DNA from: Bacteroidota bacterium
Lineage (GTDB): Bacteria; Bacteroidota; Ignavibacteria; Ignavibacteriales; Ignavibacteriaceae
DNA length: 64,000 nt
Direction: 5' to 3'
Assembly (NCBI GenBank): GCA_020161395.1
Contig: JAIUOE010000010.1
Location: forward strand, 62,001-126,000
A program made the position numbers and the translations under genes. Below, piece by piece: positions 21,098 to 25,554 of this stretch. The notes under the pieces are model-generated. The model made no database searches. It was not told where the DNA came from and worked only from the letters and a program-made list of their open reading frames with translations. Within the stretch, counting starts at the first letter, position 1; every line of letters starts with the position of its first letter.

Positions 21098-21162
21098 GCT
21101 TTAATTAAACAAACATTTTGAATAACTTGAAATCACAAATTCATTTAATGAGGAGAAACGCT

Positions 21163-22611
21163 ATGAAAAAACTCTTTACGGCTGTAGTTTTAGTTGCAGC
21201 CATGGCTTCTATGGCTTTCGCCCAGAATGCTGTGACATTCAAAGTCAACATGGGAAAACAGGTTACACTCGGTAACTTCGATCCTATGGCAGATACTTTG
21301 TTTGTCAGTGGTGCATTCAACGGGTGGGGCACTGGAAACCCAATTCCAAAGCCAGCCGGCAATGACTCAATCTGGGTTGTAACCGTTCCTGCAGTTGGTG
21401 CACCTGGTGCAACTGCTGAATACAAATTCAGATTCAGAGATGTCTCTGCTGCTGCTGATGTATGGGAAAGTGTCGCAAACAGAAGCCTCACAGTAGCCGG
21501 TGATCCGACCGTTCTCGATGTAGTTTACTTCGACAACAATGGTTATCAGGCAACAACAAACTTAAGCCTTACATTCTCGGTTAACATGGAACTCGAAAGA
21601 CTTTCAGGAAGATTCACACCATCAGAAGATACCGTTTCAGTAAATGGTAACTTCAACGGCTGGACTTCGAAAGTTAATATCATGCTTCCAAGTGCTAACC
21701 CTGATGTTTACGAAGTAACCTTCAACAAAGAAGTATCACTCGGTGAAGAACTTAACTACAAATACTGGTACACACCTAATGCATGGGAAAGCCGTCCTAA
21801 CAGACAGTATATCATCACACAAGCTGATCTTACTGCAGGTTTCCTCGTACAGGAAGGTACATACAATGACGGAAGCCTTGCAATCGTTATCAATCAGCCA
21901 TGTACAATTAAGTTCACAGTGAACACTAACGGAGCAAGCGGTCCTATCGGTCCATTTACATCTGTTACCAACGCTATCATCGCTGGTTCATCAGCTCCAT
22001 TGGGATGGCCAGGTGGCGGATGGCCAACAAGTGACTCAGCAGTAGTTATCAGATTATTTGATGACGGTACCAACGGTGACCTTGTAGCTGGTGACAAAAT
22101 ATTCTCAAAGAATGTTCTTTTCCCTGCTTACACTTCACTCGGTCTCGAATACAAATATGGTCTTAACTTTGGATTGGCAACAAACCAGGGTTCGAACGAT
22201 AACGAAGCCGGTGTTGGCAGCAACCATACACTCAACTGGCACATCAATTATGTAAGTGCAACTGCTGTTGATACTTTCGGTAGAATCACCACTGCAAACC
22301 TTATCAATGTCGTTACAGGCGTTAAGGAAATTGACAACAATATTCCTAACAACTATTCGATGACACAGAACTATCCTAACCCGTTCAACCCTTCAACATC
22401 AATCCGTTTCAGCATTCCTGAGACAGGTAATGTAAGAATGGTAGTTTACAATGCAATCGGTCAGGAAGTAGCAGTTCTCGTTGATGAGCAGAAATCAGCC
22501 GGTAACTATGAAGTTAGCTTCGATGCAGCTAAATTGCCTTCAGGTATCTATCTTTACACAATTCAGTCAGGCAGCTTTAGCCAGACCCGTAAAATGATGC
22601 TCTTGAAGTAA
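21163..22611 (+). CDS. T9SS type A cargo protein with two FNGW starch-binding-like domains
   Basis: Starting at ATG 21163 (482 residues) behind AGGAGAAACGCT, the protein opens with a signal peptide MKKLFTAVVLVAAMASMAFAQ. Two beta-sandwich domains each contain the FNGW signature, VSGAFNGWGTGNP near 50-60 and VNGNFNGWTSK near 165-175; this is typical of CBM20/CBM48- or SusE/F-like carbohydrate-binding domains. A third beta-rich domain spans about 260-380. The C-terminal sorting domain begins at YPNPFNPSTSIRFSIPE near 404 and ends TRKMMLLK. It closes the receptor-PorV cluster and is followed by a terminator. Binding of glucans is possible but unproven; FNGW domains also serve other roles. Confidence 0.85.
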   Translation: MKKLFTAVVLVAAMASMAFAQNAVTFKVNMGKQVTLGNFDPMADTLFVSGAFNGWGTGNPIPKPAGNDSIWVVTVPAVGAPGATAEYKFRFRDVSAAADVWESVANRSLTVAGDPTVLDVVYFDNNGYQATTNLSLTFSVNMELERLSGRFTPSEDTVSVNGNFNGWTSKVNIMLPSANPDVYEVTFNKEVSLGEELNYKYWYTPNAWESRPNRQYIITQADLTAGFLVQEGTYNDGSLAIVINQPCTIKFTVNTNGASGPIGPFTSVTNAIIAGSSAPLGWPGGGWPTSDSAVVIRLFDDGTNGDLVAGDKIFSKNVLFPAYTSLGLEYKYGLNFGLATNQGSNDNEAGVGSNHTLNWHINYVSATAVDTFGRITTANLINVVTGVKEIDNNIPNNYSMTQNYPNPFNPSTSIRFSIPETGNVRMVVYNAIGQEVAVLVDEQKSAGNYEVSFDAAKLPSGIYLYTIQSGSFSQTRKMMLLK

Positions 22612-22635
22612 TTCAACTCTAACTGAATTATTGTT

Positions 22636-22669
22636 AAAAAGGCTGCTTGAAAAGGCAGCCTTTTTTTTT
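22636..22669 (+). terminator. Intrinsic terminator after the FNGW T9SS gene
   Basis: GGCTGC (22641-22646) pairs with GCAGCC (22655-22660), extended by AAAAA/TTTTT, and runs into nine T residues. It lies 25 bases after the stop codon. Confidence 0.9.
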
Positions 22670-22729
22670 GTCTATCAATATTGAATAGCTACTAAAGAAA
22701 AGAGTCGACTGAGAATTTTCAAATCAACT

Positions 22730-22954
22730 TACCCCCGAAGCGGGGTTATATGTTCGTAGCTGCAAGATTAATAATCAAATAATACCCCCGAAGCGGGGTT
22801 ATATGTTCGTAGATGAAAGATCAATAATCAAATAATACCCCCGAAGCGGGGTTATATGTTCGTAGAGAGCAGAACAACAAACCATTCCTACCCCCGAAGC
22901 GGGGTTATATGTTCGTAGAGGGTTATATGTTCGTAGAGGGTTACATGTTCGTAA
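22730..22954 (+). repeat. Left hairpin array of IS200-like element (family B)
   Basis: Four full 30-base units occur at 22730-22759, 22783-22812, 22836-22865 and 22889-22918. Each has a hairpin CCCCG-AAG-CGGGG followed by a tail TTATATGTTCGTAG. Two tail-only copies follow at 22921-22936 and 22939-22954; the innermost reads TTACATG instead of TTATATG. Spacers are 23-24 bases and AT-rich, the first two being similar to each other. The tails point toward the transposase gene. The stretch 22670-22729 between terminator and array shows nothing. Confidence 0.88.
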
Positions 22955-22962
22955 AGCTTTTC

Positions 22963-23418
22963 TCATTCTTTCCACAAATATTCTTTTTTATATTCGATTC
23001 CGTACGAAGTTAAAAACTTCTCATATTCTTCTGTAAAGCTGTTTCGGTGATGATGCACTTCCTGATCTTTAATGTATTGGACAATACGGCTTATCTCTGA
23101 TTTACCGATTGAAAAAGCACCAAAACCTTCCTGCCAACTGAATCTTCCAACTGCTAATCTTTTCTCATTAACGAAAAGTGATGAACTTCTTTTAATCTCT
23201 TTTACCAGTTCTGAGATAGAAATATCCGGAGAAATCCCTAACAAAATATGAACATGATCCATGTCTCCATTAATAATGTACAAAACTTGTTTTTTATTGG
23301 TTATGATACCGGAGATATATTTGTAAAGTTCTTCTTTCCATTGTTTTGAAATCAACCTTTCTCTTCTTTTAACAGAAAAAACCACATGAATGTAAAGTTG
23401 AGTAAATGTACTTCCCAT
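22963..23418 (-). CDS. tnpA: IS200/IS605-family TnpA transposase (Y1 HUH)
   Basis: The 151-residue protein is the usual length of IS200-type TnpA. The HUH motif is HVH at 55-57 (GDMDHVHILLGI), and the catalytic tyrosine is Tyr115 in the helix VQYIKDQEVHH, preceded by WQEGFGAFSIGKSE, all canonical for this family. It acts on single-stranded DNA and recognises subterminal hairpins. No TnpB/IscB gene accompanies it, as in IS200. The gene is intact and is framed by inverted hairpin arrays on both sides; the sequence differs clearly from the RAYT at 8399, with a different catalytic-helix pattern. It separates a terminator and the end of an SGNH hydrolase gene, so insertion did not break a visible gene. 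Confidence 0.92.
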   Translation of the reverse strand: MGSTFTQLYIHVVFSVKRRERLISKQWKEELYKYISGIITNKKQVLYIINGDMDHVHILLGISPDISISELVKEIKRSSSLFVNEKRLAVGRFSWQEGFGAFSIGKSEISRIVQYIKDQEVHHHRNSFTEEYEKFLTSYGIEYKKEYLWKE

Positions 23419-23487
23419 GATCGACTCATTAAATTGAAAAAAATGTTTATAAAAATAATTATTGGCATATAAATATCATAAAGGAAT

Positions 23488-23639
23488 CTACGAACATGTA
23501 ATCCTCTACGAACATATAACCCCGCTTCGGGGGTATTCAAGGAATTCTGTCGTGTGTCTACGAACATATAACCCCGCTTCGGGGGTATTCAAGGAATTCT
23601 GTCGTGTGTCTACGAACATATAACCCCGCTTCGGGGGTA
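23488..23639 (-). repeat. Right hairpin array of IS200-like element (family B)
   Basis: Three full units in inverted orientation lie at 23506-23535, 23558-23587 and 23610-23639, and one innermost tail-only copy at 23488-23503 has the same TTACATG variant as on the left. The two spacers at 23536-23557 and 23588-23609 are identical 22-mers, so a 52-base unit has been duplicated in tandem. Together with the left array this gives a symmetric element of roughly 0.9 kb. The rest of the gap to 23724 shows no gene. Confidence 0.88.
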
Positions 23640-23724
23640 CTCACAGAATATCGCTATTTGTCAACCAAGATAAAATCGTGCTTCTACTCACATGTCACCC
23701 AAAGGGCTGACATAATGATTATAC

Positions 23725-25554
23725 CTACCGGATGTTTTTTAGTTGCTCGGCAAGTTGGGCAGCTCCGGGGAAACGGGGATCGACCTGAAGGCAACGGCTG
23801 ATATATGTTTTTGCTGAAGTGAAATCTTTCAGATTGATGTATGCCCCCGAGAGATTATAGAGCGTCTGGGCATCATTCCCGTTGTAATTAAGGCTTTCGC
23901 TCAACCATTTTTTGGCTTCTGCAGCCTTACCGTCGTTCAAAGCAAGGATACCAAGCCATTTTGTTGAGAATGCCCCGGGTTTAACGGTGTAACTTTCGTG
24001 AAATATTCTGCCACTTTCGGAATAGAGTTTCATTTGAAGGAATGCATCGGCAAGCATATCGTAGAATGTGGTCTGGTAATGGAATTGTGAGATCAAAACC
24101 CTGAACTCCTTTTCCATTCCGGACGGGTCATTTTTGGCAGTAAAATACTGCGCAGCTTTTATGTGGGCATCATGCCATTTGATGTCCCCTTTAGCCGACA
24201 TTAAAGCCAGGGAATCGAGCATTGTTACGGGTTTCCTTATCTGTTCGAGAGTCAGTTTCTTTCCGTTTCTTACGAAAGGCCATTGCGACATTATCCCGGC
24301 TAATCTGTATTCTGCAATTAGAGAGTCAAGTTGAGAAAACGCAAGTTTTGAAAATGCCAGACTGTCCAGTGATTTACCGCCGGGTGAAAAAGCAGGAGAC
24401 CCGGAAATCTTTCCTGATTTGATGATTGCATCGAGAAAGATATCAGCCAGCAAACTGTAGCCGGTAAGGTTCGGATGGAGGTGATCCACCATCAGCGATT
24501 TTCCGGGTATGCTGTTCTCACTTCGTGTTGAAAAGATCGAATCCGCTTTTACGACTGTAAAATTCAGAGCGGCGGCGTTTTCTGTAATTATTTTGTTAAA
24601 ATCTTCAGGAGCCCTGAATCTCAGCTCATCCAGTTCCTTTGCCTCAAGAAATTTTGCAGAAGCCTCTCTGTTTTTACCTGATTTCAGGAGCCTGTTGGCT
24701 TCATCCCACGCTTTTCCAGCACCTGACAGTTCCGGATAGAAGGGTGGCTGGTCTGCCAGATTGGAAACCAGTGTACTCGCAATTACCGGGATATTGTTTT
24801 GTTTAAGTGAGGTGAAGATTTCAGAAAGATTGTATCTAAACTGTTCCACTCCTTCACTATAAAGATCGGAACCCTTGGGAATCAGTTTGTCTTTTGCGAG
24901 CGCCTCCATCAGGCCTTGTGATTCTGAGAGATTCCCCGGGGAAGAGGAAAAAATGGAGCCAATCAGTTTCATTACTTTAAGGTTGCCTGCTTTAAGCATA
25001 AATCTCGTTACACCCGGAGAACTCCCGATGCCCGTTTGTGAGGCAGCTCCCAAAGCACCGTAATATTCATTGTGGCCCGTATAAACAAGTACCAGATCAG
25101 GTTTTTGGGCTATAACATCTTCGAGTATATCCAAAATTGCATAAGAATTGATCGCCGCAATTCCTAAATTTACAACCTCAAACTTTTTTTGTGGATACAA
25201 AAGTTTTAGCTTGAGATCGAGAAATCTGGAGAATGAGCCGTTTGGTTCATAGGGAAATCCTGCTGCGCTGCTCTCTCCAAGGATGAAGATCCTGAGAGTG
25301 TTTGGGTCTTTTTCTTTAAGAAAAACATCATTTATGGAATGGGGAACGAATTGTGATCCTTTGAAATATCGACGGGTAAGGTCCGGGTTAAGCATCATAA
25401 GCTTTTCTTCGGTTCCCGGTACGGTAATGAATACTGGTTCATCTTTTGCGTATCCGCTTAGTCGCAGCACCACTTCGAGTAATGCGATAAGGACAAAAGG
25501 TGCGAGAACCGTCAGGAGATAAAAGGATAAGGGATATTTCTTTTTGTTTTCCAT
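23725..25554 (-). CDS. SGNH/GDSL-type hydrolase-like membrane protein with TPR tail
   Basis: I start at the ATG at 25554 (609 residues); the open frame extends upstream but without a signal. A membrane anchor follows (YPLSFYLLTVLAPFVLIALLEVVLRLSG). The hydrolase domain has the nucleophile-type block FILGESSAAGFPY near residue 90 and the block VYTGHNEYYG further on, with a late SMLVDHLHPNLTGYSLLA carrying the catalytic-type Asp and His. The C-terminal part (about 480-609) consists of TPR-like repeats. SGNH enzymes of this membrane-bound type often act on surface polysaccharide or peptidoglycan acetyl groups; the substrate here is unknown. It is divergent from a chaperone gene with 76 bases between. 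Confidence 0.82.
   Translation of the reverse strand: MENKKKYPLSFYLLTVLAPFVLIALLEVVLRLSGYAKDEPVFITVPGTEEKLMMLNPDLTRRYFKGSQFVPHSINDVFLKEKDPNTLRIFILGESSAAGFPYEPNGSFSRFLDLKLKLLYPQKKFEVVNLGIAAINSYAILDILEDVIAQKPDLVLVYTGHNEYYGALGAASQTGIGSSPGVTRFMLKAGNLKVMKLIGSIFSSSPGNLSESQGLMEALAKDKLIPKGSDLYSEGVEQFRYNLSEIFTSLKQNNIPVIASTLVSNLADQPPFYPELSGAGKAWDEANRLLKSGKNREASAKFLEAKELDELRFRAPEDFNKIITENAAALNFTVVKADSIFSTRSENSIPGKSLMVDHLHPNLTGYSLLADIFLDAIIKSGKISGSPAFSPGGKSLDSLAFSKLAFSQLDSLIAEYRLAGIMSQWPFVRNGKKLTLEQIRKPVTMLDSLALMSAKGDIKWHDAHIKAAQYFTAKNDPSGMEKEFRVLISQFHYQTTFYDMLADAFLQMKLYSESGRIFHESYTVKPGAFSTKWLGILALNDGKAAEAKKWLSESLNYNGNDAQTLYNLSGAYINLKDFTSAKTYISRCLQVDPRFPGAAQLAEQLKNIR

Follow-up and report, generated by a model that had tools for sequence, protein, structure and literature searches.

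The stretch of DNA analyzed here (the window, 64,000 nucleotides) contains a gene for a 151-residue Y1/HUH transposase, tnpA (22963..23418, minus strand), which is framed by two arrays of 30-nt units, each consisting of a hairpin and a tail that faces the gene. The left array (22730..22918, plus strand) holds four such units, which are identical 30-mers (22730-22759, 22783-22812, 22836-22865 and 22889-22918) recurring every 53 bp exactly, even though the third spacer departs from the preceding two. Adjoining the gene on this side are two hairpin-less copies of the tail (22920..22953, plus strand), with the form TTATATG at 22920-22937 and TTACATG at 22938-22953. On the right a single hairpin-less tail copy of the TTACATG variant, lying on the other strand (23487..23504, minus strand), is followed by an array of three units (23506..23639, minus strand; 23506-23535, 23558-23587 and 23610-23639), which are inverted with respect to those on the left and have a period of 52; the 52-mers 23505-23556 and 23557-23608 are identical. 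A first-pass annotation had recognized the four left and three inverted right units with tails toward the gene, and the duplication of a 52-base unit with its spacer on the right, and our coordinates and repeats agree with it. It had also reported one innermost hairpin-less TTACATG copy per side, which indeed occurs on both sides, but the left side has two hairpin-less tails rather than one.

The two sides of tnpA match each other in inverted orientation, far above chance: the best inverted ungapped score between them is 43, as against a maximum of 14 in 200 shuffles and 7 in the direct orientation. As single-stranded DNA the window hairpin is predicted to fold with -4.8 and -5.7 kcal/mol (z -2.04 and -1.96), and the left hairpin-less pair has no stable predicted fold (z 0.71). 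In an Rfam search over 22500-23800 no family overlapped a unit, and all seven matches with E<=1, each below the gathering score, fell within a terminator stretch at 22538-22718. Just outside the right array lies a possible decayed tail of a second type, termed family C below (23684..23700, minus strand; C10:85684-85700), a two-mismatch match of a kind that chance can yield, as seen from three control matches in the genome. The neighboring gene at 21118-22611 encodes a protein with a C-terminal tail that we read as secretion-type.

The product of tnpA is a complete 151-aa Y1 transposase (Pfam Y1_Tnp, 98.3 bits, E 4.5e-28; NCBIfam transpos_IS200; two generic transposase families in PHROGs). In an alignment with 45 relatives H55, Y115, Q119, H122, H123, W95 and Q96 are invariant, and H57, which completes the H55-x-H57 motif, is conserved in at least 90%. 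Its predicted structure (mean pLDDT 85.7) matches TnpA of ISDra2 and IS608 with Z of about 12-13 and the REP-associated transposase (RAYT) 4er8 with Z 10.5. With an HUH motif, one catalytic tyrosine and the TnpA fold it is a Y1 (HUH) single-strand transposase and, judged by its conserved residues, it carries the signature of TnpA-Y1 subclass 1.2 (Y---Q--HH, DH[IV]H, WQ). The gene is under purifying selection, with dN/dS of 0.043 (dS 0.59) against the ortholog in a sister species, and of 0.090 for the orthologous pair of a second tnpA gene of the host genome.

Hairpin units around related transposase genes

Of 294 genomes of the class, 174 carry a homolog of tnpA (E<=1e-10). The loci compared are the best 80 of 247 relatives from the genome collection, or 75 after dropping five duplicates, with loci having short flanks at contig ends retained; those named come from Bacteroidota, Verrucomicrobia, Ignavibacteria, Poribacteria, Calditrichaceae, Myxococcales and others, and many are from MAGs. 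Among the loci listed, hairpins on both sides of the gene are usual, typically two in tandem per side about 50 nt apart. The typical inner hairpin is separated from the start or stop codon by about 14 nt and has a shortened tail, and the typical outer one lies ~50 nt further out with a full tail pointing to the gene and ten bases between stem and TAG. A strict unit (5-bp stem with at least three GC, loop of 3, 4 or 6, N10 and TAG), a definition taken from the very loci that were then scored with it, and checked out of sample by a model search of the host genome, occurs within 150 bp and with its tail toward the gene in 61 of the 75 loci (left 48, right 41, both 28), leaving 14 in which a strict gene-facing unit near the gene is absent. 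Units near the gene face it in 97 cases and point away in 23 of 120. Their density is 5.39 per kb near the gene and 0.031 per kb beyond 1.5 kb (about 175-fold); the 200-bp flanks contain 129 units, and each of 20 shuffles of them 0-1. Spacing between units on the same strand is 49-55 in 15 of the 21 pairs lying under 130 bp apart. Large arrays, with several to more than ten unit hits, stand beside tnpA at L127:2296-2802 (Chitinophagales) and L086:6541-7829 (Poribacteria).

In all-against-all comparisons, homology between many loci in unrelated surroundings spans only the ~630 bp from outer hairpin to outer hairpin. The homology of such pairs begins about 74-92 nt upstream and ends about 81-106 nt downstream of the gene, and alignments of two groups place the ends of the outer hairpins there. 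Other pairs extend further, such as L095/L102 with ~1.1 kb on both sides, presumably at a shared site, and in some the homology does not pass the gene on one side, the unit there being absent or too diverged or the contig running out. The typical element is a ~630-bp succession of outer unit, inner unit, tnpA, inner unit and outer unit, with units ~50 nt apart.

The stem shows compensatory changes. As an alignment of 60 units (A2) had been chosen by perfect stems, covariation was tested on 12 verrucomicrobial loci (A3) selected by position and not by pairing, in which 60 of 60 cells are paired, three of the five pairs show double changes, and the covariation score is reached by none of 500 shuffles. 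TAG is invariant in A2, partly by construction as it was required when seeds were picked, and also in the 12 position-chosen loci. Across 52 non-redundant loci, distances between tails correlate with distances between proteins (Mantel r 0.545, 0/2000 permutations), and those between stems do so more weakly (r 0.276, 0/1000 permutations). The correlation of tail and protein fits cognate recognition, and joint descent of units and gene would give the same.

A model (R1) was trained on A2, which is gap-free and contains no unit from the host genus, 31-mers (including those of the host genus) and some near-duplicates having been left out. With E<=0.1 it detects a unit in 157 of the 294 genomes of the class: in 79 of 86 with a close tnpA (E<=1e-40) as against 78 of 208 others, and in 124 of 174 with any tnpA hit as against 33 of 120 without, so that 50 genomes with tnpA have no unit hit and 33 without it have one. 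The Fisher values for this association are tiny, but the species are related and not independent, and at most ~25 candidates were scored per genome. At five more distant Y1 loci (25-35% relatives) R1 had hits in none; of two homologs on Bacteroidota plasmids, L244 has three model hits, the best of which faces away from the gene, and L245 has only two partial hits (E 0.23 and 0.26), which do not cover the TAG.

Gene-less arrays and their change between species

The census of units away from tnpA rests on pattern and model searches of the host genome (4.07 Mb, 21 contigs). Units of the window type (family A) were sought across it with an 18-nt piece of the window unit at up to 3 mismatches, the reversed piece serving as control; 26 matches (control 0) were found, nine at the window locus and 17 elsewhere. 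The latter include gene-less head-to-tail arrays of 4, 3 and 4 units at C3:375542, C12:69362 and C2:52336, in which units recur every 53 bp exactly and the spacers differ, as well as a facing pair at C3:147459/147854. Of the single matches, at least one (C1:162848) seems to be due to chance. The searches revealed one further tnpA (C13:28510), which is 50% identical and framed likewise by units of a family B; this family has 25 matches in the genome (control 0) and a gene-less array of five units at exactly 52 bp (C6:3001-3226). Family C has 61 matches (control 3), its neighbors being mostly 48-50 bp apart (range 44-53); we found no cognate tnpA for it in the host genome, and in the sister species two tnpA genes are framed by related units. 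Gene-less head-to-tail arrays have a period of about 49 or 52-53 bp, depending on the family. With R1 the host genome gave 13 hits at E<=1, 12 of them at arrays seen before or at the facing pair; the top-scoring one, C1:222501, is adjacent to a family-C match. The window's own units score 16.9-21.1 bits and none reaches E<=1 in the genome search; as the model is weak on units of the host genus itself, the 13 hits are an undercount.

Several gene-less family-A arrays (L041:1861-2319, L159, L160:1177-1627 and L042) terminate a shared ~330-bp module, about 77-81% identical between unlinked sites as if larger composites had been copied, so that part of the dispersal may reflect duplication of longer segments. 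Further sequences recur in such surroundings. At L012:536-667 and 1064-1200 the facing pair of units lies inside a ~120-bp inverted duplication that includes a terminator-like hairpin beside the neighboring gene. Degenerate GAGAAACTTGAGAGAC-type runs are seen near gene ends beside arrays at two sites (L013:680-820 and 2050-2170; L012:500-560 and 1180-1260), and runs such as ATCCGCGTGTATCTGCGTCC and CTCTGTGTTCTCTGTG together with a GGACAATCGAGACGATTGTCC palindrome recur beside arrays at L040:2575-2725 and at L242:1080-1110 and 1490-1520.

The sister species (G149), which has 41 family-A pattern matches (control 3), keeps the window tnpA in the same gene neighborhood, with 95% protein identity and 5 + 3 hairpin units in place of the 4 + 3 seen here. 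Three orthologous array sites were compared against a shuffled spacer similarity of 0.45 (95th percentile 0.54). At the tnpA locus the spacers have diverged, those on the right being still related (0.70) and those on the left weakly so (0.61). At C2:52336 they have been replaced (0.54) while the flanks align at 85-95%, and the C12 array has the same spacers as its sister counterpart in another order (0.81). At another sister locus with tnpA and arrays (L203), the matching host site has 30 bp in place of 1,082 bp; this extra DNA, whether by gain or by loss, also holds some sequence other than the arrays. No clean empty sites were obtained from the flanks of the L040 array or from those of the sister array at G149 C3:359744.

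These comparisons bear on several proposals of the first-pass annotation. Its suggestion that the outer units had been amplified is supported to the extent that units are locally repeated and both their number and their spacers changed between the species. Its view of the innermost TTACATG copies as the true ends of the element does not hold: the innermost unit of the relatives listed usually retains its hairpin, cross-species homology often stops at the outer hairpin, TTACATG is the usual form in the three larger gene-less family-A arrays of the host genome, and the innermost copies in the sister species lack it. It had further advised a genome-wide search, holding that units without relation to the transposase would speak against its reading; taken literally this is what we found, and the many gene-less arrays argue against a plain insertion sequence and are what a REP/RAYT-like system predicts.

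Relationship to known elements and a proposed mechanism

IS200/IS605 elements have one unlike hairpin per end, on the same strand, the ends of IS608 being asymmetric and its right end having the layout hairpin-linker-cleavage site. The window locus resembles these elements (IS608, ISDra2) in fold, catalytic residues and subterminal hairpins, but it has mirror-image repeated hairpins on both sides, and bursts of identical copies were absent from the genomes looked at. In the relevant table of PMC6006769 subclass 1.1 (IS200/IS605) averages 4.8 copies with 99.4% identity, whereas the host genome has two tnpA copies which are 50% identical. With REPtrons, whose RAYTs are associated with GTAG REPs (E. 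coli, Stenotrophomonas; sections of PMC8266576, which also treats the guide and cleavage chemistry of REP/RAYT), the locus shares a domesticated-looking Y1 transposase, flanking inverted palindromes and cognate gene-less copies dispersed across the genome. It differs from them in having its conserved tetranucleotide 10 nt 3' of the stem and not at the 5' foot as in REPs, in gene-less arrays that are mostly head-to-tail with a near-constant period, and in a protein motif YIxxQ where RAYTs have YIxxNP. The 5' foot of the units has no GT[AG]G consensus; the automatic REP search outlined in PMC6006769 looked for hairpins with a basal stem of 7 nt or more and with GT[AG]G lying 0-2 nt to their 5' side, and units with a 5-bp stem and without this motif would have failed it. 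TIRtrons, as presented in the pertinent part of Di Nocera et al. (2013, PMC3733652), similarly place a Y1 transposase (TIRYT) between inverted repeats, but their GGGGWSAS motif is missing from the unit consensus here, and 20 of 26 described TIRYTs belong to subclass 2.1 according to the corresponding passage of PMC6006769. The first-pass annotation was broadly right in placing the locus between a mobile insertion sequence and a REP-RAYT system: the locus departs both from a standard IS200 and from a canonical REPtron.

The closest published group is subclass 1.2 as characterized in the relevant entries of Quentin et al. (2018, PMC6006769), with which TnpA shares the residue signature, a length of ~150 aa, low copy number and Bacteroidetes among the main phyla. 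There the subclass is listed with 'no' REP and as generally lacking typical terminal IS200 structures, whereas here a regular hairpin end is present on each side together with dispersed cognate units. We read this mismatch as an incompleteness of the published description rather than as a sign of a protein outside the subclass. Within the limited literature searched, subclass 1.2 is treated only in PMC6006769, and the portions of Di Nocera et al. (2013, PMC3733652) and RepRanger (2025) available to us do not describe such a hairpin layout.

A hairpin design that frames relatives in several phyla and is scattered without the gene points to an undescribed relative of the RAYT/REP systems. We consider it probable that the locus is a REPtron-like element of subclass 1.2 Y1 transposases, with cognate hairpin-N10-TAG units mirrored on both sides and a low-copy tnpA gene that selection maintains. 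The constant distance between stem and TAG, the conservation of TAG and the chemistry of IS608 and RAYT make it likely that the enzyme binds at the hairpin and cleaves at the TAG tetranucleotide. By analogy with the IS608, ISDra2 and RAYT enzymes, TnpA would bind the hairpin on single-stranded DNA and nick at or beside the TAG tetranucleotide via Y115; joining of neighboring nicks could then release or re-insert units of ~50 nt, that is one period, and such release and re-insertion may build, homogenize and seed arrays. Joining of cuts at neighboring TAGs would account for the near-constant period, the partly homogenized spacers and the head-to-tail order. The present arrangement at the window locus would reflect loss of the inner hairpins and amplification of the outer units.

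For array growth the main rival is replication slippage or recombination at hairpin-rich tandem repeats, with TnpA as a passenger or only the original inserter, just as segment duplication is the main rival for some of the dispersal. Spacers are indeed more similar within an array (0.64-1.0) than between sites (0.44-0.67; shuffled 0.45), and family-C arrays persist in the host genome without a cognate tnpA, but slippage does not explain why units are dispersed over many sites, why they are mirrored around tnpA across several phyla or how the period persists with a changed spacer (unit at 22836), so we hold it to be an unlikely account. An ordinary IS200-like insertion sequence moving as a whole, its arrays being duplicated ends, could explain the ~630-bp block common to species in unrelated surroundings, the ~1.08-kb block of tnpA and arrays that is present in the sister species and absent at the matching host site, and paralog pairs of 84, 88 and 93% identity in three genomes. 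We nevertheless regard it as quite improbable: the two host copies are 50% identical, the other paralogs compared within seven genomes are 45-71% identical and usually have different units, the gene is under purifying selection at a position shared between species, units abound without it, and the ends are mirrored, unlike the asymmetric ends of IS608. Moreover, the 302 matching plasmid records all show less than 60% identity (27-42% in the ten matches listed) and the eight matching phage records 25-34.5%. That the hairpins act mainly in RNA, as terminators, mRNA stabilizers or controls of tnpA expression, seems very unlikely, for although the arrays looked at are intergenic, some between convergent genes as judged by ORFs, and REP hairpins act so in other bacteria (as reported in a section of PMC12306157), no T-run follows the hairpin, and tails facing the gene on both flanks lie on opposite strands relative to tnpA transcription.

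Extending the REPtron-like reading, we tentatively raise the possibility that subclass 1.2 represents a third kind of single-stranded DNA element beside IS200/IS605 and GTAG-REP/RAYT, mirror-symmetric and with four hairpins, in which a selected transposase would cut at TAG and make ~50-nt single-strand units that build tandem satellites across several phyla. A transposase group that stands in print as having no recognizable DNA partner would then gain one, in the form of a simple 30-nt substrate, and the REP/RAYT concept would extend, under a different layout, to Bacteroidota, Verrucomicrobia and others. This would also explain a class of hairpin arrays found between genes in these lineages, and head-to-tail arrays of near-constant period would offer a way to study how such repeats arise.
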